Shown: positions 1,249 to 11,061 of the stretch, piece by piece
Layout: the number at the start of each line of letters is the position of its first letter
How positions within the stretch are numbered: the first letter of the stretch is position 1
Source of the DNA: a bacterium
GTDB taxonomy: Bacteria > Chloroflexota > Dormibacteria > UBA8260 > Bog-877
Reading direction: 5' to 3'
Assembly (NCBI GenBank): GCA_021791455.1
Contig: JAJYWM010000042.1
Span: 1 to 14,335 of the forward strand
Length of the DNA stretch: 14,335 bases
The notes under the pieces: model-generated
Database searches by the model: none
The model's input: the letters and a program-made list of their open reading frames with translations, nothing else
What the model was told of the DNA's origin: nothing
Program-made: the position numbers and the translations under genes

Positions 1249-3984
1249 CTACCCGTGGTCGAGGCAGCGTCTGAGCTCCGCCGCCAAGACGTCGGCATAC
1301 CTGGTGATCGACGAGGCGTGATCGCCAGGTACGTAGTGCGACTCCACGTCGGACAGGGAGCGGCGCCACCAAGCGACGGTCTTCGGGGCTGTGGCGGGCA
1401 CCTCAGCCGCGTCCCTGGACCAGAACATTACGACCCGACCTGCGTATGGGCGCGGGCGGTAGGCGGCCGTGGCCCACGAGTAGCGTCCGAACTGATCCTC
1501 GTGACGCTCCGCCCTGGCCCACCTCGACAGGTCCCGCTCCTCGCCAGCCAGATCCAGGCCCCTGGCCCTGCCCGGCCCCTGCGGCGCCACGACCCGCCGG
1601 CGCGACTGCACCGCCTGGCGCAGCCGGATGACCGCGGGGTCCTCACCCTCCAGGGGTGCCGCCCCACCGGCCCTGCCAAGGGTGTAGCCCCGCAGCTCCT
1701 GGACACGATGGAAAAGCCCCAGCACCCAGAGAAACCATTCGACCTGGCGCCTGGTCCCAACCCGCAACGGGCGCGCCAGCCCCGCGATCGCGGCATGGGC
1801 CAGGAGGATGCGCCGCCGTGGGCGCCCCGGGTCGATCATGGCGACCATGCGGACCTCCTCTCCCGCCGCCTTCAGCTGCTGCGCGAGTTCCAGAGCCACG
1901 TAGCTGGCGGGCCGGTAGCCGACTAGGTGATATGGCCCCGACGGCTGAATCTCCCTGATGAGGGGCAGGTAGTAGGCGGCCATCTCCTCGATGGTCGCGG
2001 GCACCGGCAGGTTGTCGATCCCGTGAGGCTGCAGCCCGTAAACCGGCTGGTCTGGAGCAATTTTGCGACCCAGGTTGAGGCAGTAGAAGCCCCCACCCTG
2101 ATGGTCACCGTGGAGAAAGAACAGCGGGGGGCGGCTGCCCGTGGCGCGAATGGCGGTGACCGGCGCCCTCTGCGCATCCCCCTCAGTTGCCGCCAGAGCC
2201 GTGGCGAGGCCCTTGATGGTGTGATGTTCGTAGAGCAGGGTCACGGGCACATCCCGGCCCAGAGCCAACCCCACCTGGCGGGTCATCCGGACAGCCAGAA
2301 GCGAGTGCCCTCCGAGGTCGAAGAAGTCGTCCTCGGTCCCGACCGGGTCCACCCCCAGCAGCTCTTCCCAGATGGCAGCCATCTGCTCCTCGAGCGGAGT
2401 CAGCGGAGCGACATACGCCGCCGAGTCACTGCTGCGTCGGCTGGCCAGCGCCACCAGCGCATCCTTGTCCACCTTGCCGTTGGCCGTGCGGGGAAGCCGC
2501 TCCAGCTCGACGATCGTCTCGGGCACCATGAACCTCGGAAGATGCAGGCGCAGGTGGTCGCGCACCCGCGCGGTGGCGACCGGCTGCCCTGGCTCCGCCG
2601 AGACCACATACGCGACCAGCGACGAAACGCCGTCGGAGTCCGTGGTGGGAAGCACGCTCGCTTCCTGTATTCCCGGGTATTTGACCAGTGCGGACTCCAC
2701 CTCTCCGGGCTCGATGCGATATCCGCGCACCTTCAGTTGCCGATCGGCGCGGCCGACGTACTCGAGCTCGCCGTCCGCGTTGATCCGGGCCAGATCTCCG
2801 CTGCGGTAGAGAGTTTTGCCCGGTCCTTCGAACGGGTTCGGCAGGAAGCGCTCCTTGGTGAGCCGGGGACGGCCCCGGTATCCCCGGGCCACGCCGGCCC
2901 CAGCCACGTACATCTCCCCGACCTCCCCGGGAGGGACCTGCCGCAGAGGCGACGTCTGCTGCTCGACAAGATAGACCTGAAGGTCAGGGATTGGTCGGCC
3001 AATGACGCTGGCGCTGTGTTGGGTGTCGCTAGTGACCACCCTGCGATAGGTCACGTGCACCGTGGTCTCGGTGATGCCGTACATGTTTATCACCTGCGGC
3101 GCATCGTCGCCGTGGCGCTCGAACCACCCGGCCAGCATTGCCGGGCGCAGGGCCTCGCCGCCAAGGATCACCCGGCGCAGACAGAGGGCCGTCGGCCCCA
3201 CGTCGCGGGACTCGACCCGGATGAGTTCGGCAAAGGCCGATGGGGTCTGGCTGAGAATCGTCACCTTCTCTTCCCGCAGCAGGGTTAGAAAGTCGGCGGT
3301 GGACCGCGCCACCGCTCGCGGCACCACCACCAAGCGGCCCCCGTGCAGCAGGGCGCCCCACATCTCCCAGACGGAGAAGTCGAAGGCGAGCGAGTGGAAC
3401 AGCGTCCAAACGTCGCGAGAGGAGAACTGGAACCAGGGGTTGGTCTTGGTGAACAGGCGGGTCACGTTGCGATGCTCCACCTCAACCCCCTTGGGGACCC
3501 CGGTCGAGCCTGAGGTGTAGATGATGTAGGCGAGGTCACTCGGCTCGCTTGCCGGCGCCCGATAGGTGGCACCCGCAGCCATGGCATCCAGGTCCTGGTC
3601 CGAGCGGATGCGGACCTCAGGCAGGCGGCCCAGCGGCTGGTCGCCATCGCCACGGTCGGTGATCAGCAGGTCGGCCCTGGAGTCCTCCAGCATGAACCGC
3701 ACCCGGTCTTCCGGATACTCGGCATCTATGGGCAGATAGGCGGCCCCGGCGAGCAGCACCGCGAGCACCGCGGCCACGGATCTGGAGGATGGGGCCAGGT
3801 GCACAGCCACCACACCTCCGCGGCCCGCACCCATCTCCTGCAACCGCCCGGCCAGTCCCCGGGCACTCGCTGACAGCTTGCGATACGTCATCACTTGCGC
3901 CCCATCGGTGACCGCGTCGCGCTCCTCGCTCGACTCCGCCCGGCTAAGAAACAGCTCGTGGATGCAAGGGTCAGAGGCGGACAT
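1249..3984 (-). CDS. Single-module NRPS: adenylation - carrier - thioesterase, altered thioesterase nucleophile
   Basis: 911-residue protein that should adenylate one amino acid and load it on its own phosphopantetheine arm. The adenylation domain spans about 5-515: A3 loop YTSGSTGVPKG (156-166), FDFSVWEMW (201-209), YGITETT (302-308), YRSGDL (393-398), GRADRQLKVRGYRIE (411-425), A10 lysine K504. The pocket residues read D202 F203 W206 S245 I273 G275 M301 V309 H310 K504, one change from the threonine code DFWNIGMVHK. The carrier has DLGGHSL with S561. The alpha/beta-hydrolase thioesterase starts near 615 (LFFLHGDHQGGGFYCLNL) and keeps D718 and H889, but its elbow reads GYRPAS, with R691 where Ser or Cys is expected. 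There is no condensation domain. A GAGGAG site at 3995-4000 lies 10 nt before the ATG. Domain calls are firm; substrate is inferred, and thioesterase activity is doubtful. Confidence 0.93.
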   Translation of the reverse strand: MSASDPCIHELFLSRAESSEERDAVTDGAQVMTYRKLSASARGLAGRLQEMGAGRGGVVAVHLAPSSRSVAAVLAVLLAGAAYLPIDAEYPEDRVRFMLEDSRADLLITDRGDGDQPLGRLPEVRIRSDQDLDAMAAGATYRAPASEPSDLAYIIYTSGSTGVPKGVEVEHRNVTRLFTKTNPWFQFSSRDVWTLFHSLAFDFSVWEMWGALLHGGRLVVVPRAVARSTADFLTLLREEKVTILSQTPSAFAELIRVESRDVGPTALCLRRVILGGEALRPAMLAGWFERHGDDAPQVINMYGITETTVHVTYRRVVTSDTQHSASVIGRPIPDLQVYLVEQQTSPLRQVPPGEVGEMYVAGAGVARGYRGRPRLTKERFLPNPFEGPGKTLYRSGDLARINADGELEYVGRADRQLKVRGYRIEPGEVESALVKYPGIQEASVLPTTDSDGVSSLVAYVVSAEPGQPVATARVRDHLRLHLPRFMVPETIVELERLPRTANGKVDKDALVALASRRSSDSAAYVAPLTPLEEQMAAIWEELLGVDPVGTEDDFFDLGGHSLLAVRMTRQVGLALGRDVPVTLLYEHHTIKGLATALAATEGDAQRAPVTAIRATGSRPPLFFLHGDHQGGGFYCLNLGRKIAPDQPVYGLQPHGIDNLPVPATIEEMAAYYLPLIREIQPSGPYHLVGYRPASYVALELAQQLKAAGEEVRMVAMIDPGRPRRRILLAHAAIAGLARPLRVGTRRQVEWFLWVLGLFHRVQELRGYTLGRAGGAAPLEGEDPAVIRLRQAVQSRRRVVAPQGPGRARGLDLAGEERDLSRWARAERHEDQFGRYSWATAAYRPRPYAGRVVMFWSRDAAEVPATAPKTVAWWRRSLSDVESHYVPGDHASSITRYADVLAAELRRCLDHG
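1903..1920 (-). other. Thioesterase nucleophile elbow with Arg in place of Ser/Cys
   Basis: Codons GGC TAC CGG CCC GCC AGC encode G689-Y-R-P-A-S694. Type I thioesterases have GxSxG here, and relatives with the 'LHGD...GGGFYC' opening can have Cys. The frame is intact on both sides. Arg691 is the CGG codon at 1914-1912. Both the nucleophile and the following glycines are altered. Confidence 0.8.
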
Positions 3985-4303
3985 CTATGACCTGCTCCTC
4001 ACAACCGTCGTGGTCCTCGTGCGCCCCCGCCGCGGGACCGGCACAGAAGATCAACCTCGGCTCGCGATGGCGCTCCCGCCCGCCGTGGGGACGCTGGTTC
4101 ATGCGGAAGGACATCAAGTGAGACCCGGCGGTGGGCACCATGCGGCGTCCGCTGCTTTGCCAAGCCAGCCTGTGGCGCCAGCGCAGCGACATGCCCCGCC
4201 CGATGGGCACGACCGCGCAGTCGCGCCCCACAGGGACACCGGCCGCCGTGCACCAGGATGACCACTGCCGCCCAACTCGGAGAACAAAAGTTAGTGCCTC
4301 CAT
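3971..4303 (-). CDS. Doubtful small ORF overlapping the synthetase start
   Basis: 110-codon frame starting at ATG 4303 and ending 14 nt inside the synthetase gene. I do not recognise the product. It is rich in Arg, Gly and His and has no signal peptide, membrane segment or MbtH-type pattern (no NxExQxSxWP, no PAGW). By hand count about 80% of codons end in G or C, as in the real genes here; against it, the first ten codons are AT-ending and no Shine-Dalgarno precedes the ATG (a GGAGG lies just after it). It could be a real accessory protein, a decayed gene, or a chance frame. Confidence 0.2.
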   Translation of the reverse strand: MEALTFVLRVGRQWSSWCTAAGVPVGRDCAVVPIGRGMSLRWRHRLAWQSSGRRMVPTAGSHLMSFRMNQRPHGGRERHREPRLIFCAGPAAGAHEDHDGCEEQVIDVRL

Positions 4304-4604
4304 ATCCTAGGGGGCGGCCACCACTGCTCTATAGCTAACCCGACGACCGCGCAGGGAAAGTGCGCGATCCTTCCAGGTAACGCGCCAGTGCCGCCCCTCA
4401 CCCGCACTTATGAGATATCGGATTCAAGCCGATGGACGAAGGACGCTTTGGCTGAGATGACTCCCGAAATCAGGCGAACGACTTGCCTTGCAAGTATATG
4501 TCGCGAGGACGTCAGCGGCCCGCCTTGGGGACCGCCTGGAACACCCGGGAGCTCTCGCACCCAACGGGACCGAGTGTGGGGAGGACGGACGCAGGCGCTA
4601 CAGC
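3985..4604. other. 620-bp gap between synthetase and FAD-protein genes
   Basis: No recognisable gene. It holds the doubtful ORF at 3971-4303. The stretch 4304-4500 is more AT-rich than its surroundings and contains a minus-strand TATAGA (4328-4333) with no convincing -35 partner. The gap is long compared with the 3-nt or overlapping junctions upstream, so the synthetase probably has its own promoter here, but none can be placed with confidence. No U-tailed terminator hairpin was found after the FAD-protein stop. Confidence 0.5.
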
Positions 4605-6572
4605 CTATCCCGACAGCACCTGAAGCGCGCAGCTCAGAGCCTCTTGGAACGACCACTTGCGGCTTCCCGGCGAGGGTATGCAGTTGGTGAAATATCGCGC
4701 CCCCTCGGTGAGCGCCCCGAAGACCCAGAGGCGCTCCTGCACCCTGCCCTCGGCGTCAACGGGGTGCGATTCACGGGTCAGCTCGACCCCCTCGGCGGCC
4801 GAGCCATCCAGCGCCATGCGAGACAGCCGCCCAGCGCGATACAGCGTCCCGATGAGAGTGGAGGCCGAGCGGTGCGGCAGAGGATCTTCCAGGAATCCCC
4901 GCACCAGGTGGTCCACCCGGTCCTGGTGTGGGCTGTCGAGGTGGGTCGAGCTAACCACGGCTCGCCCCGCAGCCAGAAACTCCACCTCCGGCCCGGGGCC
5001 ATAGGGCATGGTCACAACCCCGGCCTCCACCAGCGCCAGCAGCTGCTGGGAGCGATAGGCCGGAGGTCCGGCGACAAGGCGGTTGATCTGACCCCGGACA
5101 CCAGGGAAGAACTCCCGATGGGATTCCGCGTCGAGACCGCCGAATTCCACCGCACGCCTGATGGGATCACGCAGAAACCGGAGGACCTCATAGGCCATCT
5201 TGATGGGGCTGGACCCACCCGGGCGCATGGCCTCGGCCAGGTCAGACTCGACCAGCTGAGTGACGAAGTCCTGATAGCCCTGCGGGCCCTCGAAGCTGCG
5301 CTCCGTGTGTGGCGACAGGTGTTCGTCGGGATCGAACCGGCCCAGCTGAGACTCCAGCCGGGCCACGGCCGAGCTGAACCGGTGCTCGGACCAAGCCCGG
5401 ATCAGCTCCTCCTTCACCACCTGGGCGGCGGCATCCCCACCCCGCAGTAGGCTCGCCTGAACGTAGTACTGCAGCCGCATCTCCGCCACCAGCAGGGGAT
5501 GCAGGTCCCGCCGCCAGTTGAGGGCCCCGCTGCCGGTTTCCGCCAGGGCCCTGGCGCGCCGCTGGGCCACCGCCTCGGGGGTCCAGAAGTTGGGCCGGAA
5601 TTGCGTGGTCACGTTGCGCATCCCGACCGCCTTGGCGCAGTGCGGCAGCCCCGTGGTGGAGAAGATGCGAATCTGCGGCTCCCGCCCGCTGGGCAAATAC
5701 CGTAGGCGATCGCCGGACCCCACTTCAAAACGACCACCACGGCCGCGGGTCAGAGCCGCCAGCACGTCGGTGGCGACCAGCCCCATCCCCGCGATCGCGA
5801 CCAGGCTGCCCGGGTCGACGGCCACCTGCTCCCGCACGACCGAGTACGGGTCCAGAGCGGCCCCCCAACCCGGTTCCGGGAGCAGATTCGGGGTGTGCCC
5901 GGAGGTCAGCATCACGTGATCCACCGTCAGCCTGGCTCCTGACGACAGGGTCACCACCTCCTGGTCGGCCCCGGCGGCGACAACCTCGACGGCCGCCGCG
6001 CGGTGGAGCTGGATCCTGACCCCGCTGGGCGGTGAACTCACCAACGCGTCATAGAACCACTGGAGGTAGCGCCCCACCACGGAGCGGGGCAGAAAGTCGT
6101 TCTCGCTGATGGCCCGGCCCCCAGGCTGAGGCAGGCAGAGGTCGCCGTGCCAGGTATAGCCATTGCGCCTGGCCCAGGAGAAGAGCCCGACCTGGTACGG
6201 GAGGCTTGCCTCCGCTTCGTCTCCGGGAAACAGGGAGATCTGGCCACAGGGGGTGTTCATCACCAGATATCCCGGCAGGTCCACGGAGTAGACACCCGAC
6301 CCGGGGCTGCCCGGCTCGACCACATGGATCAAGACCGCGGAGGCACCACTGCCCCCCTGCCGGATCACGGTCAGCAACCTCTCCAGGACGGCGAGGCCCC
6401 ATGCTCCCATGCCGATGATGGCAACCTCCAGCTGCCCATTGGGCGAGTAATGGCTGCGGTTGCGCTGTCTCCTAGAGCTGGTCCCTTGAGCCTCACTCGT
6501 CACGAGGCCGACCCCAGGGTCCGGCAGGGCCGCCGCCGCTTGGGCGATCTGCTCGGCCGACGCCACGGTCAC
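4605..6572 (-). CDS. FAD/NAD(P)-binding protein (PF13454-like), probable oxidoreductase
   Basis: 655 residues from a GTG start that overlaps the metY stop as GTGA (6572-6569), the usual coupled arrangement. The same frame stays open to 6953, but that extension lies wholly inside metY and reads as Arg/Gly/Pro-rich shadow. About 53 residues precede the first dinucleotide site 'VAIIGMGAWGLAVLERL' (GMGAWG at 54-59). Next come 'YLVMNTPCGQISLFPGDE' (MNTP near 105), typical of the FAD-NAD(P)-binding family, and a second Rossmann-type segment 'VAIAGMGLVATDVLAAL' (262 onward), fitting a two-nucleotide flavoprotein. The C-terminal half is helical, closing with 'VFGALTEGARYFTNCIPSPGS'. Family members are poorly characterised and the substrate cannot be read from sequence. 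Last gene of the operon; a redox step on the amino acid or carrier-bound intermediate is inference. Confidence 0.87.
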   Translation of the reverse strand: MTVASAEQIAQAAAALPDPGVGLVTSEAQGTSSRRQRNRSHYSPNGQLEVAIIGMGAWGLAVLERLLTVIRQGGSGASAVLIHVVEPGSPGSGVYSVDLPGYLVMNTPCGQISLFPGDEAEASLPYQVGLFSWARRNGYTWHGDLCLPQPGGRAISENDFLPRSVVGRYLQWFYDALVSSPPSGVRIQLHRAAAVEVVAAGADQEVVTLSSGARLTVDHVMLTSGHTPNLLPEPGWGAALDPYSVVREQVAVDPGSLVAIAGMGLVATDVLAALTRGRGGRFEVGSGDRLRYLPSGREPQIRIFSTTGLPHCAKAVGMRNVTTQFRPNFWTPEAVAQRRARALAETGSGALNWRRDLHPLLVAEMRLQYYVQASLLRGGDAAAQVVKEELIRAWSEHRFSSAVARLESQLGRFDPDEHLSPHTERSFEGPQGYQDFVTQLVESDLAEAMRPGGSSPIKMAYEVLRFLRDPIRRAVEFGGLDAESHREFFPGVRGQINRLVAGPPAYRSQQLLALVEAGVVTMPYGPGPEVEFLAAGRAVVSSTHLDSPHQDRVDHLVRGFLEDPLPHRSASTLIGTLYRAGRLSRMALDGSAAEGVELTRESHPVDAEGRVQERLWVFGALTEGARYFTNCIPSPGSRKWSFQEALSCALQVLSG

Positions 6573-7918
6573 CGTGAACCCCCCAACGACTCCAGGTCCA
6601 CGGTCCCGAGGCGGGCCTGACTGGCGTCGAGCGCCTGATCTATGTCCTGCAGGATGTCGTCGATGTTCTCCAACCCGACCGAGAGGCGAATCGCCTCCGG
6701 GCGCACGCCGGCCCGTCGATGCTCCTCCGGGGTCAGCTGCCGGTGGGTTGTCGAAGCGGGATGGCTGACCAGGCTCTTGGCGTCGCCCAGGTTGACCAAA
6801 CGCTTGAACAGCTTCACCGAGTTGAAGAAGGTGAGCCCGCTCTCGTAGCCGCCGACCACGCCAAACGTGAGCATCGACACCGTGTGGTCTCCCAGGTACT
6901 TGCGCTGCAAGCGGTGGTAGGGGTTGTCCGGGAAGTCTGAGAAACTCACCCACTCGACCCTGGGATCGGCGCTCAGGTAGGCGGCCACCCGACGGGTGTT
7001 CTCCTCATGGCGCTGGAGCCGCACCGGCAGGGTCTCCAGCCCCTGGAGCAGCATGAAGGCGCTGAATGGGGAGAGCGTCGGACCGAAGTTCCGCAGGCCC
7101 ACCGTGCGGCAGCGGACGATGAAGGCCCGGCGCCCAAAGTCATGGGCATAACGCACCCCGTGGAAGCAGGGCTCAGGCTCATTGAACCAGGGGAACCGCT
7201 TCGGATGGGCGGCCCAGGGAAAGCTTCCTCCATCTATCACCGCCCCTCCCATCGTGGTTCCGTGCCCCCCAATCCACTTGGTTAGGGACTCCACCACCAC
7301 ATCCGCACCGTGCTGGATCGGCTTGAGGTATATGGGGGTCGCCACGGTGTTGTCGACGATGAGGGGCACCCCGTGGGAGTGGCTCACCTCGGCCAGCACG
7401 TCCAGGTCGACGATGTTGCCCGCGGGGTTTCCGACGCTCTCGCAGAAGACACCGATCGTGGAGTCGTCAATGAGCGGCTCGATCTCGTCCCTGGCGTCAC
7501 TTTGGGCCAACCGAACCTCCAGCCCGAACCTCGGTAGCAGATGGGCGAAGAGGGTGTAGGTAGCTCCGTAAAGCTGTGGAACACTGACCAGGTTGCGGCC
7601 CTGCCCTCCCAGATTGAGGATCGCCTGGGTGACCGCCGCCATGCCCGATGCGAACAGCACGGCGCCCACGCCCCCCTCCAACTGGCTCAGCCGCTCCTCC
7701 AGGACCTCGTTGGTGGGGTTGTTGATCCGGTTGTAATGGAAACCCGGGATCTCAAGGTCGAAGACAGCTGCGGCGTGGGCCGCATCGGTGAAGTCGTTGG
7801 CGACGGTCTGGTAGATGGGAACCGCGACCGCTCTGGTGGCGTCAGGGTGGTACCCCGCGTGGATGGCGACGGTCTCGTCACGCATCGCTTGGGATGGGCG
7901 GCTCTGCCTGTCGTCCAT
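6569..7918 (-). CDS. metY: O-acylhomoserine sulfhydrylase, MetY type (PLP-dependent)
   Basis: PLP enzyme of the Cys/Met-metabolism family. Canonical members replace the acyl group of O-acetyl- or O-succinylhomoserine with sulfide to give homocysteine; relatives in secondary metabolism use other nucleophiles. 449 residues, slightly longer than the usual ~430. Signatures in order: AIHAGYHPD (18-26), 'FHYNRINNPTNEVLEERL' (60-77), LFASGMAA (88-95), 'VPQLYGATYTLF' (113-124), Schiff-base lysine K214 in SLTKWIGGHG, 'SPFSAFMLLQGLETLPVRL', and the C-terminal 'LVNLGDAKSLVSHPASTTH' with RLSVGLE. All expected active-site blocks are present. ATG 7918 lies 3 nt after the acyltransferase stop and its own stop overlaps the FAD-protein GTG. 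It is probably coupled to the acyltransferase as donor supplier. Housekeeping methionine synthesis versus a dedicated role cannot be decided from this window. Confidence 0.95.
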   Translation of the reverse strand: MDDRQSRPSQAMRDETVAIHAGYHPDATRAVAVPIYQTVANDFTDAAHAAAVFDLEIPGFHYNRINNPTNEVLEERLSQLEGGVGAVLFASGMAAVTQAILNLGGQGRNLVSVPQLYGATYTLFAHLLPRFGLEVRLAQSDARDEIEPLIDDSTIGVFCESVGNPAGNIVDLDVLAEVSHSHGVPLIVDNTVATPIYLKPIQHGADVVVESLTKWIGGHGTTMGGAVIDGGSFPWAAHPKRFPWFNEPEPCFHGVRYAHDFGRRAFIVRCRTVGLRNFGPTLSPFSAFMLLQGLETLPVRLQRHEENTRRVAAYLSADPRVEWVSFSDFPDNPYHRLQRKYLGDHTVSMLTFGVVGGYESGLTFFNSVKLFKRLVNLGDAKSLVSHPASTTHRQLTPEEHRRAGVRPEAIRLSVGLENIDDILQDIDQALDASQARLGTVDLESLGGSR

Positions 7919-7921
7919 CGG

Positions 7922-8938
7922 CTAGCCGCAGCCAACGCTGGCCGGTTTGGGAGCGACCTTCACCGCGGCCAAACACTCCAGCCAGTTGCGATACAGCTGC
8001 TCGGCTCCAGAGGACCAATCCTTTTCCACCGTCGCCGCCAGGGCGGCTGCGGGAAAGGAGTCGGCGCTGGCTCGATCCGGGCCGATCGCCACCCGGCCGC
8101 CAAGCGAGGCGAGCAGCGGGGCCGCACCCTGGCCCAGGTAGCCCTGAGGAGCGCTGGGCCGGAAGCAAGCCTGGCCCAGATGGAATCGCCGCCAGTCCCT
8201 TCTGTACTCCTTCAGAAGCGCCAGGCGATCGTACTCGGGGTGCCCTTGAACCAGCACCAGCAGACAATCACCCTCCTGCCTGGATACCACCGACCAGTCA
8301 GCCGACTGGCTGAGTAGCGGTCGGTACCCTCGCTCGATCAGAGCATCGAACCCCACCGTGTTGCTGTGGGAATGGGGCAAACTCAGGCGCCCTCCGAGGC
8401 CCCTCGTGAGCGGGCTGGGCGCCATCACGGAGGCCTCGCTCAGGCCGAAGCACTTGGATTCGAGGCGAACCCGGTCCAGGCCGTCAAGCATCAGAGCGAC
8501 CCCGTGCGCGGCCAGACACGACGCCACAACGGATCCACAATTGCGCAGCCCCCAATCCAGGACCGCGGTCATGGCATCCCAGTAGGGCTCGTCCTGCAGC
8601 CTGGTAGTGGTGGGCTCCGTTCCGGTGACGATCAAACCGTCGAGGCCGGCGCCGCCCACCTCCTCGAAGGACCGGTACCGAGCCTCGAGAATCGCCCGCA
8701 CGCGGGGCCCGCGTTGAAGCCCGGGGAGCCAGAAGCGGTGAAGCTCCACCGCCCTCTCACCGGCCGCCGCGTGGAGAAGCCAGCGGAACTGGGCCTCGGT
8801 GTCCTCAAACGCCGCGTCGGGCATGTTGTTCACGAGGCCGATCCGGACCGGGCCGCCGCTCCTCCGTGGGGCTGGTGAACCCTGGAGGTCGGTCCCGTCC
8901 TGACGGTTGGACGTCAGCTCCGTCACCACTTCAATCAT
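7922..8938 (-). CDS. Divergent homoserine O-acyltransferase (MetA/HTS-like)
   Basis: 338-residue member of the homoserine O-succinyl/acetyltransferase family (class I glutamine-amidotransferase fold), expected to acylate homoserine. The triad matches E. coli MetA in position: C141 (VASCLAAHG), H233 and E235 (VQGHPEYD), followed by 'KEYRRD'. It departs elsewhere: canonical NLMPxK is 'NNMPDAAFEDTEAQF' without the lysine, the HSR signature is PHSHS, and the acyl-specificity site (Gly111 or Glu111 in MetA) aligns to Thr110, so acetyl versus succinyl is not predicted. ATG 8938 overlaps the glycosyltransferase stop by 8 nt. An earlier in-frame start at 9115 lies inside that gene and adds only shadow sequence. 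It directly precedes metY, consistent with supplying its substrate. Another acyl acceptor remains possible. Confidence 0.85.
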   Translation of the reverse strand: MIEVVTELTSNRQDGTDLQGSPAPRRSGGPVRIGLVNNMPDAAFEDTEAQFRWLLHAAAGERAVELHRFWLPGLQRGPRVRAILEARYRSFEEVGGAGLDGLIVTGTEPTTTRLQDEPYWDAMTAVLDWGLRNCGSVVASCLAAHGVALMLDGLDRVRLESKCFGLSEASVMAPSPLTRGLGGRLSLPHSHSNTVGFDALIERGYRPLLSQSADWSVVSRQEGDCLLVLVQGHPEYDRLALLKEYRRDWRRFHLGQACFRPSAPQGYLGQGAAPLLASLGGRVAIGPDRASADSFPAAALAATVEKDWSSGAEQLYRNWLECLAAVKVAPKPASVGCG

Positions 8939-9779
8939 CGTGTTCCGTTGCGACCAAGGTGTTCGCTGGAAGCTCAACCCGGCGCGGTCCGAACTCGGCG
9001 ATGATGGTGCGTAGCACCCGCCACCCATCTCGCATGGTGTGCAGCTTGCTGAAGCCGTAGAGACGGCGGGCCTCGTGGCTCCCCACCTCCTCCACCCTGA
9101 GCCCGGCGCGCGCAATCCTGATGTTGATCAAGGTCTCGACCTCAAACCCATCGCAGTCTGGATTCATGTAGGGCAGGCAGTGACGCCAGAAGGCGTTCAT
9201 GCCATAGCAGAGGTCGGTGTAATCAGTGCGGTACAGGAGGTTCACAAGCCAGACCAGCGCGGCGTTACCGAGGCCCCTGAAGCGGGTTATGTCGGCGCTG
9301 CTGCCCCCGTGCCCAAATCTGGTGCCCTTGGCGAAGTCCGCCCCCCCGGTCAGGACCTCGACGAACTTGGGAATCTCGCCGGGATCCGCGGATCCGTCGC
9401 AATCCAGCATGACCACGATGTCCCCAGTCGCCGCCTGGAAACCCGCCGCCAGGGCGTTCCCCTTGCCCCGGCCGGTCTGATGCACCACGATCGCGCCCGG
9501 CAGAAGCTCCTGGAACGCCTCCACGGTACCGTCATTGGAACCGCCATCGACCAGGATCACCTCGGACACGCACGCAGGCAGCTTGCAGAGAACGTGGGGA
9601 AGGTTCTGGGCCTCGTTCAAGGCCGGTATGACAACCGAGATTCGCGGCTGAACCAGCCTCCCAGGAACTTCTATCGAGACGGTAGGAGTCTCCGCCAGTG
9701 TCGAGCGTGGCGGCACCTCGGCTTCGATCTCTGGTGTGATCGCATCGTACAGGGTCGACGCCACTTCGGCCTCAGCCAT
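8931..9779 (-). CDS. Family 2 glycosyltransferase (polyprenyl-phosphate mannose synthase-like)
   Basis: 282-residue inverting GT-A transferase, first gene of the operon. About 45 variable N-terminal residues precede 'ISVVIPALNEAQNLPHVL' (47-64), VDGGSNDGT (77-85), GRGKGNALAAG (103-113) and the metal/nucleotide motif MLDCDGS with D126 and D128. Later 'TDLCYGMNAFWR' and 'GFEVETLINIRIARAGL' match soluble GT2 enzymes of the dolichyl/polyprenyl-phosphate sugar group. There is no transmembrane segment, so it is probably cytoplasmic or membrane-associated. The ATG has a good GGAGG 7 nt upstream. Placement ahead of an acyltransferase/sulfhydrylase pair is unusual and suggests sugar attachment to the pathway product or to a lipid carrier, but donor and acceptor are unknown. 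Confidence 0.92.
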   Translation of the reverse strand: MAEAEVASTLYDAITPEIEAEVPPRSTLAETPTVSIEVPGRLVQPRISVVIPALNEAQNLPHVLCKLPACVSEVILVDGGSNDGTVEAFQELLPGAIVVHQTGRGKGNALAAGFQAATGDIVVMLDCDGSADPGEIPKFVEVLTGGADFAKGTRFGHGGSSADITRFRGLGNAALVWLVNLLYRTDYTDLCYGMNAFWRHCLPYMNPDCDGFEVETLINIRIARAGLRVEEVGSHEARRLYGFSKLHTMRDGWRVLRTIIAEFGPRRVELPANTLVATEHDD

Positions 9780-9852
9780 GCTGTGGCCTCCGCCCAGCGG
9801 AACGCATCACCAGCGGTCGCGCGAGGATCCCCCCCTCGCGAGAACCAGTCAT
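9772..9852 (-). CDS. Possible 26-residue leader peptide ending inside the GT2 start
   Basis: ATG 9852 follows AAGGAGG by only 3 nt. The frame runs 26 codons and stops at TGA 9774-9772, a few bases past the glycosyltransferase ATG. It contains the 9820-9840 hairpin. The peptide is Arg/Gly-rich with no run of one amino acid, so classical attenuation is not indicated; translational coupling is possible. It may equally be a chance ORF. Confidence 0.25.
   Translation of the reverse strand: MTGSREGGILARPLVMRSAGRRPQHG
9787..9791 (-). promoter_or_regulatory. Ribosome binding site of the GT2 gene
   Basis: GGAGG on the minus strand, 7 nt before ATG 9779-9777, within GGGCGGAGGCCACAGC. It supports this start for the first gene of the operon. 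Confidence 0.7.
9820..9840. repeat. Hairpin in the operon leader
   Basis: Perfect 7-bp inverted repeat CGCGAGG / CCTCGCG with a 7-nt loop. It lies about 40 nt before the GT2 start, within the predicted 5' leader and within the possible leader peptide. No U-tract follows on the minus strand, so it is not a standard terminator; an effect on leader folding is inference. Confidence 0.5.
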
Positions 9853-9959
9853 GCGCCTCCTTCGCGGTACAGCCAAAGACATCCCGTAGGAATGCCAGAA
9901 CCCATCAACCGGCCGGCGCGGCGCTCGCCGCCACCTGCAAATTCCCTTCCTCTCAGGGG

Positions 9960-9988
9960 ATTGTGACAGTGGGCAACGGGTCTGTCAA
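9960..9988 (-). promoter_or_regulatory. Sigma-70-like promoter of the GT2-acyltransferase-metY-FAD operon
   Basis: Minus strand: perfect -35 TTGACA (9988-9983), 17-nt spacer, -10 CACAAT (9965-9960; four of six consensus bases). The expected transcript start is near 9953, giving a 5' leader of about 174 nt before the GT2 ATG. This is the best promoter match seen in the window and points straight at the operon. Confidence 0.6.
9964..9987. promoter_or_regulatory. Inverted repeat spanning the promoter spacer, possible operator
   Basis: TGACAG (9964-9969), 12 nt, CTGTCA (9982-9987): perfect 6-bp half-sites, one touching the -10 element and one the -35. The position would let a dimeric regulator control the promoter. 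Part of the symmetry comes from the -35 consensus itself, which weakens the case. No regulator gene lies in the window. Confidence 0.35.
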
Positions 9989-10020
9989 GAGATCTGACGC
10001 TCCTGTTACCGCAACCTGAC

Positions 10021-10085
10021 GAAGGGGCCCGGGCTCGACCGACTCATCCTCTGGGAAGGCCCCTTCCAGCCCCTAACCGGGGGCG
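10021..10085. repeat. Cluster of GC-rich inverted repeats with alternative pairings
   Basis: GAAGGGGCC (10021-10029) is the exact reverse complement of GGCCCCTTC (10058-10066). The right arm also belongs to a local palindrome GGAAGG-CC-CCTTCC (10054-10067), so the two pairings exclude each other. A third small stem, GCCCC/GGGGC, follows at about 10069-10084. There is no T-tract. It lies upstream of the operon promoter, so it is not part of that operon's leader. Confidence 0.5.
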
Positions 10086-10300
10086 TTCCGCGGAGCGGTG
10101 AGTCGTGCGTCCACGACCTGAGTGGTGCGAGCGCTTCAAGGCCACGTGAGGATCGCCGGCAGCCAGCGGGCGGCCACAACAAGGCGTCACGTGGATTCCA
10201 GGATACCAGCCCCGGGACGCTCGATCGTCGGCCCGCTGATCTCAAGGTCGACCGCGCAGTGGTCTCCTCTGGCCCCTGCGTCGTGCCGTCGCCAACGGTG

Positions 10301-10324
10301 TCGAAGCAAGACTCGAAACAAGAC
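10301..10324. repeat. Tandem 12-bp repeat
   Basis: TCGAAGCAAGAC (10301-10312) followed directly by TCGAAACAAGAC (10313-10324), differing at one base. The second unit contains the core of the flanking direct repeat. Function unknown. Confidence 0.6.
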
Positions 10325-10329
10325 CAGGT
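10314..10329. repeat. Right copy of the short direct repeat flanking the synthetase/operon block
   Basis: CGAAACAAGAC followed at once by CAGGT. It matches 1218-1228 plus 1233-1237 in the same orientation, about 9.1 kb away. Both copies lie in intergenic DNA outside the block 1249-9988. Confidence 0.4.
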
Positions 10330-10371
10330 AGGTTCTGGAGTCGCCACCCGAGCTGGGGACGGGCGCTGACC

Positions 10372-10380
10372 GGGGGGGGG
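10372..10380. repeat. G9 homopolymer within a G-rich, quadruplex-prone stretch
   Basis: Nine consecutive G, followed by T and GGG, and preceded by GGGGACGGG at 10355-10363. Four or more G-runs lie within about 30 nt on the plus strand. It is non-coding as far as can be seen. Runs this long are prone to slippage and to sequencing error. Confidence 0.6.
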
Positions 10381-10537
10381 TGGGAGCAGTCAGAGCCCAG
10401 CCGAGGATGCACGGACTGCCCTGACCGCCCAGGGACCATCCGCACGCTCACCTGGGATTGCCAGGGCCCCATCGAAGCTGGATCGACGAGCGGTCTGCTG
10501 CCGGGCCGCGCATCCCGGCACGCGTCCACATTGGGAC

Positions 10538-11008
10538 TTGGGCGGCGTCCACATCGGCATCGCCCTGTGCGAACATGATGTGGTGGTGGACAAGGAGGGC
10601 TATGGGGCGAGGCCGGAGCAGACCGACCTCGAGCGGCTGCTTGAGGACTGCAGAACCCTCTCCTCTGCTGGAATCGAGCGGATCGCTCACGCGTGGGACA
10701 GGAGGGGAGCCGAGGGGGATTACCTGGCGGCCGAACGTGCGGCCCTGCGGGTGGTCGAGCGGCACTCCCGCGGGGAGCTCTGGGACACAACCCGAAACCG
10801 CCTCTTGGGGCTGACCGAAAGGGGCACCCCTTTGGTCGCATGGAGAGCTGAGCACGGCGCGGTCGGGCACAAGGCGGAGGACGCCCTGATGGGCTGCGCC
10901 CTGGCTCTCATAGCGCAACCGGAGCTGGATCGCCACCACGCCCAGGTGCTGCTCCATCCCATGGCCCAGGCCCTGCCCTGGCTACTTCCAGACTCCACCC
11001 TGGACTGA
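10538..11008 (+). CDS. Unrecognised 156-residue protein, start uncertain
   Basis: I do not recognise a family. The frame looks genuinely coding: by hand count about 80% of codons end in G or C, and the product reads as alternating amphipathic helices (LERLLEDC, 'AAERAALRVVERHSRGELW', 'AEDALMGCALALIAQ', 'HAQVLLHPMAQALPWLL') rather than shadow sequence. It has no signal peptide, membrane segment or clear catalytic motif. The only early start in frame is TTG 10538, with no good ribosome site. GTG 10580 is an alternative, and the frame stays open upstream without ATG or GTG, so this may be a truncated or frameshifted remnant. It converges on the aminotransferase gene, 53 nt away, and no promoter was found for it. 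Confidence 0.5.
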   Translation: MGGVHIGIALCEHDVVVDKEGYGARPEQTDLERLLEDCRTLSSAGIERIAHAWDRRGAEGDYLAAERAALRVVERHSRGELWDTTRNRLLGLTERGTPLVAWRAEHGAVGHKAEDALMGCALALIAQPELDRHHAQVLLHPMAQALPWLLPDSTLD

Positions 11009-11023
11009 GACGAGCCGAGCTGC

Positions 11024-11051
11024 CAGCGCCGTCCCATCGCCTGCGGTGCTG
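11024..11051. terminator. Possible hairpin between convergent genes
   Basis: CAGCGCCG (11024-11031) and CGGTGCTG (11044-11051) pair over 8 bp with one G-U wobble around a 12-nt loop. It lies between the ends of the 156-residue gene and the aminotransferase gene, where a bidirectional terminator would be expected. No T-tract follows on either side, so termination is only suggested. Confidence 0.3.
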
Positions 11052-11061
11052 CCACACGCGC

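Follow-up and report, generated by a model that had tools for sequence, protein, structure and literature searches.

In the rhizobitoxine, loline and fusaric acid pathways, a MetY-type PLP enzyme (RtxA, LolC and Fub7, respectively) acts outside methionine synthesis, on an acylated homoserine. To our knowledge, none of these pathways has an N-hydroxylase and an HTS/MetA-type homoserine O-acyltransferase (HTS) as partners. Flavin-dependent N-hydroxylation of an amino acid is exemplified by the FzmM-type aspartate N-hydroxylase. In its structure (8cp2) the side chains of Arg13, Arg276, Asn413, Arg416 and Arg577 bind L-aspartate (PMC10404684), and the substitution N413E abolishes hydroxylation (PMC10404684). 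The CreE/CreD nitrosuccinate pathway has also been described; the portions of that paper available to us hold nothing on homoserine (PMC11705231), and nor do those of PMC9113183. Here we describe a locus where an FzmM-type flavoprotein is encoded beside HTS and MetY. We consider, with a probability of about 0.58, that these three genes form a module dedicated to an N-oxygenated, gamma-substituted 2-aminobutyrate, a non-protein amino acid derived from homoserine. The reading draws on gene content, conservation of the three genes, fold and signature residues, from which we infer every catalytic step and the product. The sequence-only reading of this DNA knew of no named cluster with such a gene set, and a literature search, covering few subscription papers, found no description of one.

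The window (the whole stretch analysed, 14,335 nucleotides) carries four tightly packed minus-strand genes, as had been described from the sequence. The first encodes a GT2 glycosyltransferase-like protein of 282 aa (8931..9779; PF00535, 91 bits), for which the best PDB matches are dolichol monophosphate mannose synthase and ArnC-type transferases. It overlaps by 8 nt the gene for HTS (7922..8938, ATG at 8938; 338 aa; PF04204, 168 bits). Three nucleotides separate the latter from the gene for the MetY-type PLP gamma-replacement enzyme (6569..7918; 449 aa; TIGR01326). This overlaps by 4 nt the gene for a flavin-dependent N-hydroxylase-like monooxygenase of 655 aa (4605..6572, GTG at 6572), assigned from fold and signature residues. 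Downstream, again as first read, the same strand encodes a single-module A-T-TE synthetase of 911 aa (1249..3984; PF00501, PF13193, PF00550 and PF00975). Because a 620-nt gap, with no convincing ORF by eye, lies between the flavoprotein and synthetase genes (3985..4604), a single operon of all five genes is not established. The 'one good promoter' reported upstream of GT2 is present as a sigma-70-like match (9960..9988, minus strand) but is not above chance; the scan found 1 site against a mean of 1.1 in shuffled sequence. An Rfam scan of the window gave no matches at gathering scores. An aminotransferase/aldehyde dehydrogenase pair adjoins the block and is probably separate from the pathway.

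Loci in other genomes were sought with two peptide patterns only, so the 55 loci found are a sample. The 52 loci scored include three with distant flavoproteins, and hits from draws of 395 and 399 genomes are not in the neighbour counts. HTS and MetY were both within 5 kb of the flavoprotein at 24 of the 27 close loci with at least 5 kb on both sides, and at 0 of 24 distant flavoproteins. Nor was the pair present at 15 of the 18 short-flank distant flavoproteins re-read with flanks of ~6 kb (for one of them, at a contig start, one flank is 3 kb). Across 49 distinct loci whose flavoprotein is close (41-50% identity), many of them truncated at contig ends, no A-T-TE synthetase was present, and a relative of GT2 was found at L051 only (47% identical, ~8 kb away). 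The earlier view of the five genes as one conserved block is thus not supported by the loci read; the set conserved there is flavoprotein, HTS and MetY, hereafter the cassette. Mirror-tree r was 0.89-0.96 (26 loci) and 0 of 2000 permutations gave a value as high, a result that shared species descent alone could explain. The closest flavoproteins with readable neighbours were 42-46% identical to that of the window (26 loci); relatives at 50-82% identity are metagenome sequences without readable gene neighbours. Metagenome matches of the synthetase, flavoprotein and HTS, compared by eye for co-location, gave no usable match. The cassette is scattered among actinobacteria, in uncultured Acidimicrobiaceae and Solirubrobacterales and a few mycobacteria. 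Its flavoprotein is patchy, being present in 5 of 297 genomes of the mycobacterial genus and in 3 of 396, 4 of 395 and 3 of 399 genomes drawn; the last three draws contained no closer genome relative of the window. If our reading is right, the cassette is an undescribed, portable biosynthetic module across these groups, and the three genes within 5 kb are a genome-mining handle for N-oxygenated amino acids.

HTS and MetY might instead form an alternative homocysteine/methionine route, with the flavoprotein as a sulfur-metabolism helper (for S-oxygenation, or sulfur release from a scavenged compound). We consider this unlikely. The window HTS is below the equivalog cut-offs for methionine-pathway MetA (292.7 of 358, 106 of 495 and 97.6 of 460.5 bits). 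Its catalytic Cys, His and Glu columns, identified by alignment to solved MetA, are kept, as they are in 29/29 cassette HTS proteins and 8/8 other aligned relatives. The window MetY passes the TIGR01326 sulfhydrylase subfamily cut-off (557.1 versus 495.1 bits), which would suit a methionine route, and is short of the equivalog PRK06084 (577.4 of 790). It is 61-67% identical to cassette MetYs (26 loci), compared with 44-51% for ten second-copy MetYs. Cassette MetYs differ from second copies, for example in K372 (41/42) and R373 (42/42), where second copies have S and H (10/10). Fub7 is among the PDB matches of the window MetY. A separate full-length MetX was found in 9 of the 17 cassette genomes, where nine matches of 418-431 bits were taken as full-length MetX (the curated cut-off of 500 bits was reached by no genome, nor by any control). 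A second MetY was found in 10 of the 17. No full-length MetX was found in the other eight genomes, so a methionine-supply role for HTS-MetY is possible there; all eight are metagenome-assembled by title and may be incomplete. Just one MetY was found in seven of the 17. A luciferase-like protein at 12 of the 52 loci would also fit sulfur metabolism; its representative is alkanesulfonate monooxygenase-like, at 224 bits against a cut-off of 510. Conversely, six mycobacterial genomes retain a MetX-MetY pair in addition to the copies in the cassette, in a genus where just 5 of 297 genomes have the flavoprotein. That flavoprotein's sole solved sequence relative is an N-hydroxylase (8cp2), and ligases and adenylation enzymes recur near the cassette; both argue against methionine supply. 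The sequence-only reading had named two adverse outcomes: scattered homologues, or HTS-MetY as the only methionine route with the synthetase missing from most relatives. The relatives read do lack the synthetase. The three core genes, however, are not scattered, and MetX and second MetY copies occur at the frequencies given above.

It is also quite unlikely, in our view, that the A-T-TE synthetase and GT2 are unrelated neighbours, adjacent by chance, and that the functional unit is the cassette only. The 49 loci without A-T-TE, the lone and remote GT2 relative, and the 620 nt between flavoprotein and synthetase favour such an explanation. Conversely, GT2 at least is linked to the cassette, because its gene overlaps that of HTS and because P0243 and P0244 are GT2-HTS fusions. 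Furthermore, an adenylation enzyme is encoded at 22 of the 52 scored loci (none of the 22 has a distant flavoprotein; L034 is weak). Among the 16 loci that extend beyond 9 kb to each side, an ATP-grasp enzyme was present at 13, an adenylation enzyme at 10 and either one at 16. The ATP-grasp gene was within 5 kb at 19 of 27 full-flank loci. Some loci have neither partner, for example L010 (flanks of 7.6 and 10 kb). These recurring partners had not been foreseen from the window. The A-T-TE synthetase is tied to the three genes by one contig, across the 620-nt gap, and was seen beside no cassette outside the window.

The synthetase is condensation-less, as first read; no PF00668 was found in it. 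The specificity code of its A domain, DFWSIGMVHK, is threonine-like, an assignment that we take from published codes. The earlier proposal of a dedicated pathway to a homoserine-derived non-protein amino acid, with a threonine-like A domain, is supported. The same synthetase in cassette relatives was considered and rejected, since their adenylation codes differ: 16 of 18 are of the DG...GRI.K/M/Q type (DGSSAGRIAK and similar) and the exceptions are also unlike the window's. The codes of P0122-P0124 were read by eye. The domain order proposed for the synthetase stands, and the TE has the alpha/beta-hydrolase fold, but the thioesterase nucleophile is missing. Its position is occupied by Arg (GYRPA), with no Ser or Cys at the elbow, and the five closest matches also have Arg. 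Cys or Ser is at the elbow in 104 of 120 among the matches listed (11 were unreadable by the pattern) and in 30/30 other aligned rows. Hence, the normal acyl-enzyme route is closed to this TE. If our reading is right, this marks out, among NRPS thioesterases, a small clade that lacks the nucleophile.

What had been called a flavin-fold protein is a flavoprotein, but its N-hydroxylase identity had been missed; it is a full-length monooxygenase of the aspartate N-hydroxylase type. It is 31% identical to 8cp2 and matches the overall fold, with a helical substrate domain wedged between two dinucleotide-binding domains. The catalytic Asn62 above the flavin is kept in the window, in 44/45 locus proteins (one gap) and in 23/23 metagenome proteins. 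At 8cp2 positions 13, 62, 266, 276, 409, 412, 413, 416 and 577 the window has WNKQRRDRS. All five flavoproteins 56-77% identical to 8cp2 have RNRRRRNRR, and with it the complete aspartate chamber. In the window, Arg13, Arg276, Asn413, Arg416 and Arg577 of that chamber correspond to Trp, Gln, Asp, Arg and Ser, so that Arg416 alone is kept. Three of the five (Arg13, Asn413 and Arg577) are substituted almost clade-wide and position 276 is variable (Arg in 2/45). Asp occupies position 413 in 44/45 locus proteins and 23/23 metagenome proteins (P0002-P0024). We consider L-aspartate an unlikely substrate, the chamber residues being mostly replaced. If right, the cassette flavoproteins would form a specificity branch of their own among the FzmM-type hydroxylases, marked by a clear residue signature; this signature and the nucleophile-less TE clade are both directly testable. 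It is very unlikely that the flavoprotein feeds an aspartate-nitrosuccinate (CreE-like) pathway, with nitrite or a nitro group as the nucleophile from which HTS and MetY make a gamma-nitro amino acid: fold, family, Asn62 and three Arg would fit, but four of the five L-aspartate-binding side chains are lost in the window, the clade has Asp where N413E abolished hydroxylation (PMC10404684), and inspection of the annotated recurring neighbour families showed no evident CreD-like lyase.

If the cassette is dedicated to making an N-oxygenated amino acid, L-homoserine would be acylated by HTS. The acyl group would then be replaced by an O, N or S nucleophile through the MetY-type enzyme. The flavoprotein would N-hydroxylate an amine, either in the nucleophile or in the product, with aspartate probably not its substrate. 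In most relatives, an ATP-grasp ligase, a discrete adenylation enzyme or both would next couple or load the amino acid. In the window, this slot is probably taken by the A-T-TE protein, loading threonine. Its TE may transfer the aminoacyl group straight to an amine, or have just a structural role, and GT2 may glycosylate the precursor or product. A bolder version, which we regard as a long shot, has an N-O-linked homoserine amino acid of the canaline or 'homo-cycloserine' type (N-O-Cgamma bond) as the product. The flavoprotein would provide an N-hydroxy nucleophile, joined through oxygen to acyl-homoserine by the MetY clade, and in the window the nucleophile-less TE would move carrier-bound threonine directly onto the product. 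If true, the window holds a thioesterase converted to a peptide-bond former.

The five flavoproteins nearest 8cp2 have no HTS or MetY neighbours within the ~6 kb read, whereas cassette flavoproteins have both. The ATP-grasp neighbour of cassette loci, for which one representative (L017) was compared, matches the bacilysin ligase BacD and the L-amino acid ligase BL00235 (PDB 3vmm and 3vot). The window has no ATP-grasp gene, and the A-T-TE synthetase instead. The D-cycloserine (dcs) pathway employs serine, a CysK-type enzyme, a heme N-oxygenase and a MetX-like enzyme, whereas the cassette would employ homoserine, MetY, a flavoprotein and HTS. The likeness is one of logic: an O-acylated hydroxy amino acid, PLP-dependent replacement by an N-hydroxy nucleophile, an N-oxygenating enzyme and an ATP-grasp enzyme.

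The window carries four tightly packed genes on the minus strand. In transcription order, these encode a glycosyltransferase-like protein (GT2, 8931-9779), a homoserine O-acyltransferase (HTS), the PLP-dependent gamma-replacement enzyme MetY and an N-hydroxylase-like flavoprotein (4605-6572). The junctions are an 8-nt overlap, a 3-nt gap and a 4-nt overlap respectively, in line with the sequence-only reading of overlapping genes or genes 3 nt apart. After a further 620 nt, the same strand encodes a single-module A-T-TE synthetase (1249-3984). The good promoter proposed ahead of GT2 is present as a match, at a frequency expected by chance. Transcribed before these genes, on the same strand (13943-11062), are overlapping genes for an aldehyde dehydrogenase (methylmalonate-semialdehyde-dehydrogenase type; TIGR01722, 654 bits) and a class III aminotransferase (PRK06062 subfamily, 700 bits), which are probably a separate catabolic pair. 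At loci L005 and L016, relatives of the dehydrogenase (about 60%) are encoded 7-10 kb away from the cassette flavoprotein. The stretch of about 1 kb between aminotransferase and GT2 (10020-11060) holds no convincing gene, just overlapping ORFs of doubtful coding value. A GT4 glycosyltransferase (1-1128) is encoded on the opposite strand to the others. Gene names are consistent with Pfam and NCBIfam matches.

GT2, HTS, MetY, flavoprotein and synthetase had been read as one pathway. The observation is real, and its flavoprotein-HTS-MetY part recurs elsewhere; in the loci read, the five genes do not recur as a set. The unit worth following is the three-gene cassette. A search of the genome collection with a profile (A1) built from 33 flavoproteins yielded 55 loci, 49 of which have a close flavoprotein (identity at least 40%). 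These 49 are mostly from Acidimicrobiaceae and MAGs titled Actinomycetes, with others from Solirubrobacterales and Mycobacterium. Where at least 5 kb was available on both sides (27 loci), 26 have MetY inside that distance, 25 have HTS and 24 have the two together. The three that deviate are L009 (HTS slightly past 5 kb), L026 (lacking MetY) and L031 (lacking HTS). Both genes were also present at 16 of 25 edge loci, three of the 25 being repeats of genomes already counted. Conversely, neither was near any of 24 distant flavoproteins. Flanks were only about 1.5 kb for 18 of these; 15 of the 18, re-read with flanks of about 6 kb, still had neither gene. Pairwise identities of the three proteins correlate (r 0.89-0.96, 26 loci). 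This would be expected under joint inheritance; species descent also contributes to the correlation. The cassette flavoprotein is rare, occurring in 5/297 genomes drawn from the genus Mycobacterium, 4/395 and 3/399 drawn from two classes, and 3/396 drawn from the phylum (13 further genomes had a distant flavoprotein only).

Methionine synthesis is a possible role for HTS and MetY. Among 17 cassette genomes, 16 have one HTS and one has two. Full-length MetX is encoded by nine (418-431 bits; the curated cut-off is 500, and all controls also fall below it) and a second MetY by ten. MetX and the second MetY are side by side in six mycobacteria and two others. MetX was not found in the other eight of the 17, all MAGs by title; hence, the HTS-MetY pair might do double duty there. 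By sequence, cassette MetYs stand apart from the second copies. The window MetY is 61-67% identical to cassette MetYs (26 loci) and 44-51% identical to second copies (n=10), and fixed differences include K372-R373 instead of S-H and N63 instead of T.

The overlap of the GT2 and HTS genes, and two single GT2-HTS proteins (P0243 and P0244; HTS part 48-49% identical), connect GT2 with HTS within the sub-lineage to which the window belongs. Across the 49 loci, a GT2 relative was seen at L051 alone (47% identical, about 8 kb from the flavoprotein). The solved proteins nearest to the window GT2 make polyprenyl-phosphate sugars. Separately, P0319 joins HTS to a C-terminal phosphopantetheine carrier domain, which suggests that some relatives of HTS use an acyl donor, or form a product, that is bound to a carrier.

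The adenylation code of the synthetase is DFWSIGMVHK, versus, for example, DGSSAGRIAK in the adenylation enzymes of relatives. Therefore, it is not the relatives' enzyme; it may fill the same activating slot. Its thioesterase has the right fold and keeps the usual PGDH histidine. The elbow reads GYRPA, versus CNGG or similar in most others, and a predicted structure places the arginine at the strand-helix elbow. Among 120 listed of 2083 matches, the elbow residue is Cys in 94, Ser in 10 and Arg in five (11 were unreadable by pattern). The five Arg proteins are the five best of those listed; one is 99% identical to the window's, perhaps from the same organism, and another is a C-A-T-TE protein. 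An alignment of 35 rows shows Cys or Ser in each of the 30 that fall outside the Arg clade. Relatives P0121-P0125 make up a small thioesterase clade with Arg at the nucleophile position (GYRPA/GFRPA). The domain is either inert or works without an acyl-enzyme.

Other neighbours recur at cassette loci, namely an ATP-grasp protein like L-amino acid ligases and BacD (one representative compared) and a discrete enzyme that adenylates amino acids. Of the 16 loci extending more than 9 kb on each side, HTS was found in 16, MetY in 15, ATP-grasp in 13, adenylation in 10 and either of the latter two in 16. L010 (flanks of 7.6 and 10 kb) has neither. A 701-aa A-T protein, differing from the discrete adenylation enzymes, is encoded close to the cassette in L007 (16507-18612), which has no ATP-grasp neighbour. 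Among 52 loci scored, parts of the Acidimicrobiaceae set add an amidohydrolase (12), aldo-keto reductase (11), luciferase-like monooxygenase (12), carrier protein (10), AcpS-like transferase (13, some in Mycobacterium) and hydrolases (13). Mycobacterium loci L015, L017, L020, L021, L029 and L051 have an extra beta-eliminating lyase (GntG-like, 65 of 230 bits for one representative) and a PaaK-like ligase, an adenylating enzyme; they are a defined mycobacterial cluster.

The cassette's core steps would be homoserine acylation, gamma-replacement and N-oxygenation. Amide formation or carrier loading would be supplementary, with the enzyme responsible varying between lineages. We infer the step order, nucleophile and product. 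The D-cycloserine route uses acylation, replacement by an N-hydroxy nucleophile and an ATP-grasp enzyme, and the cassette may follow a parallel logic.
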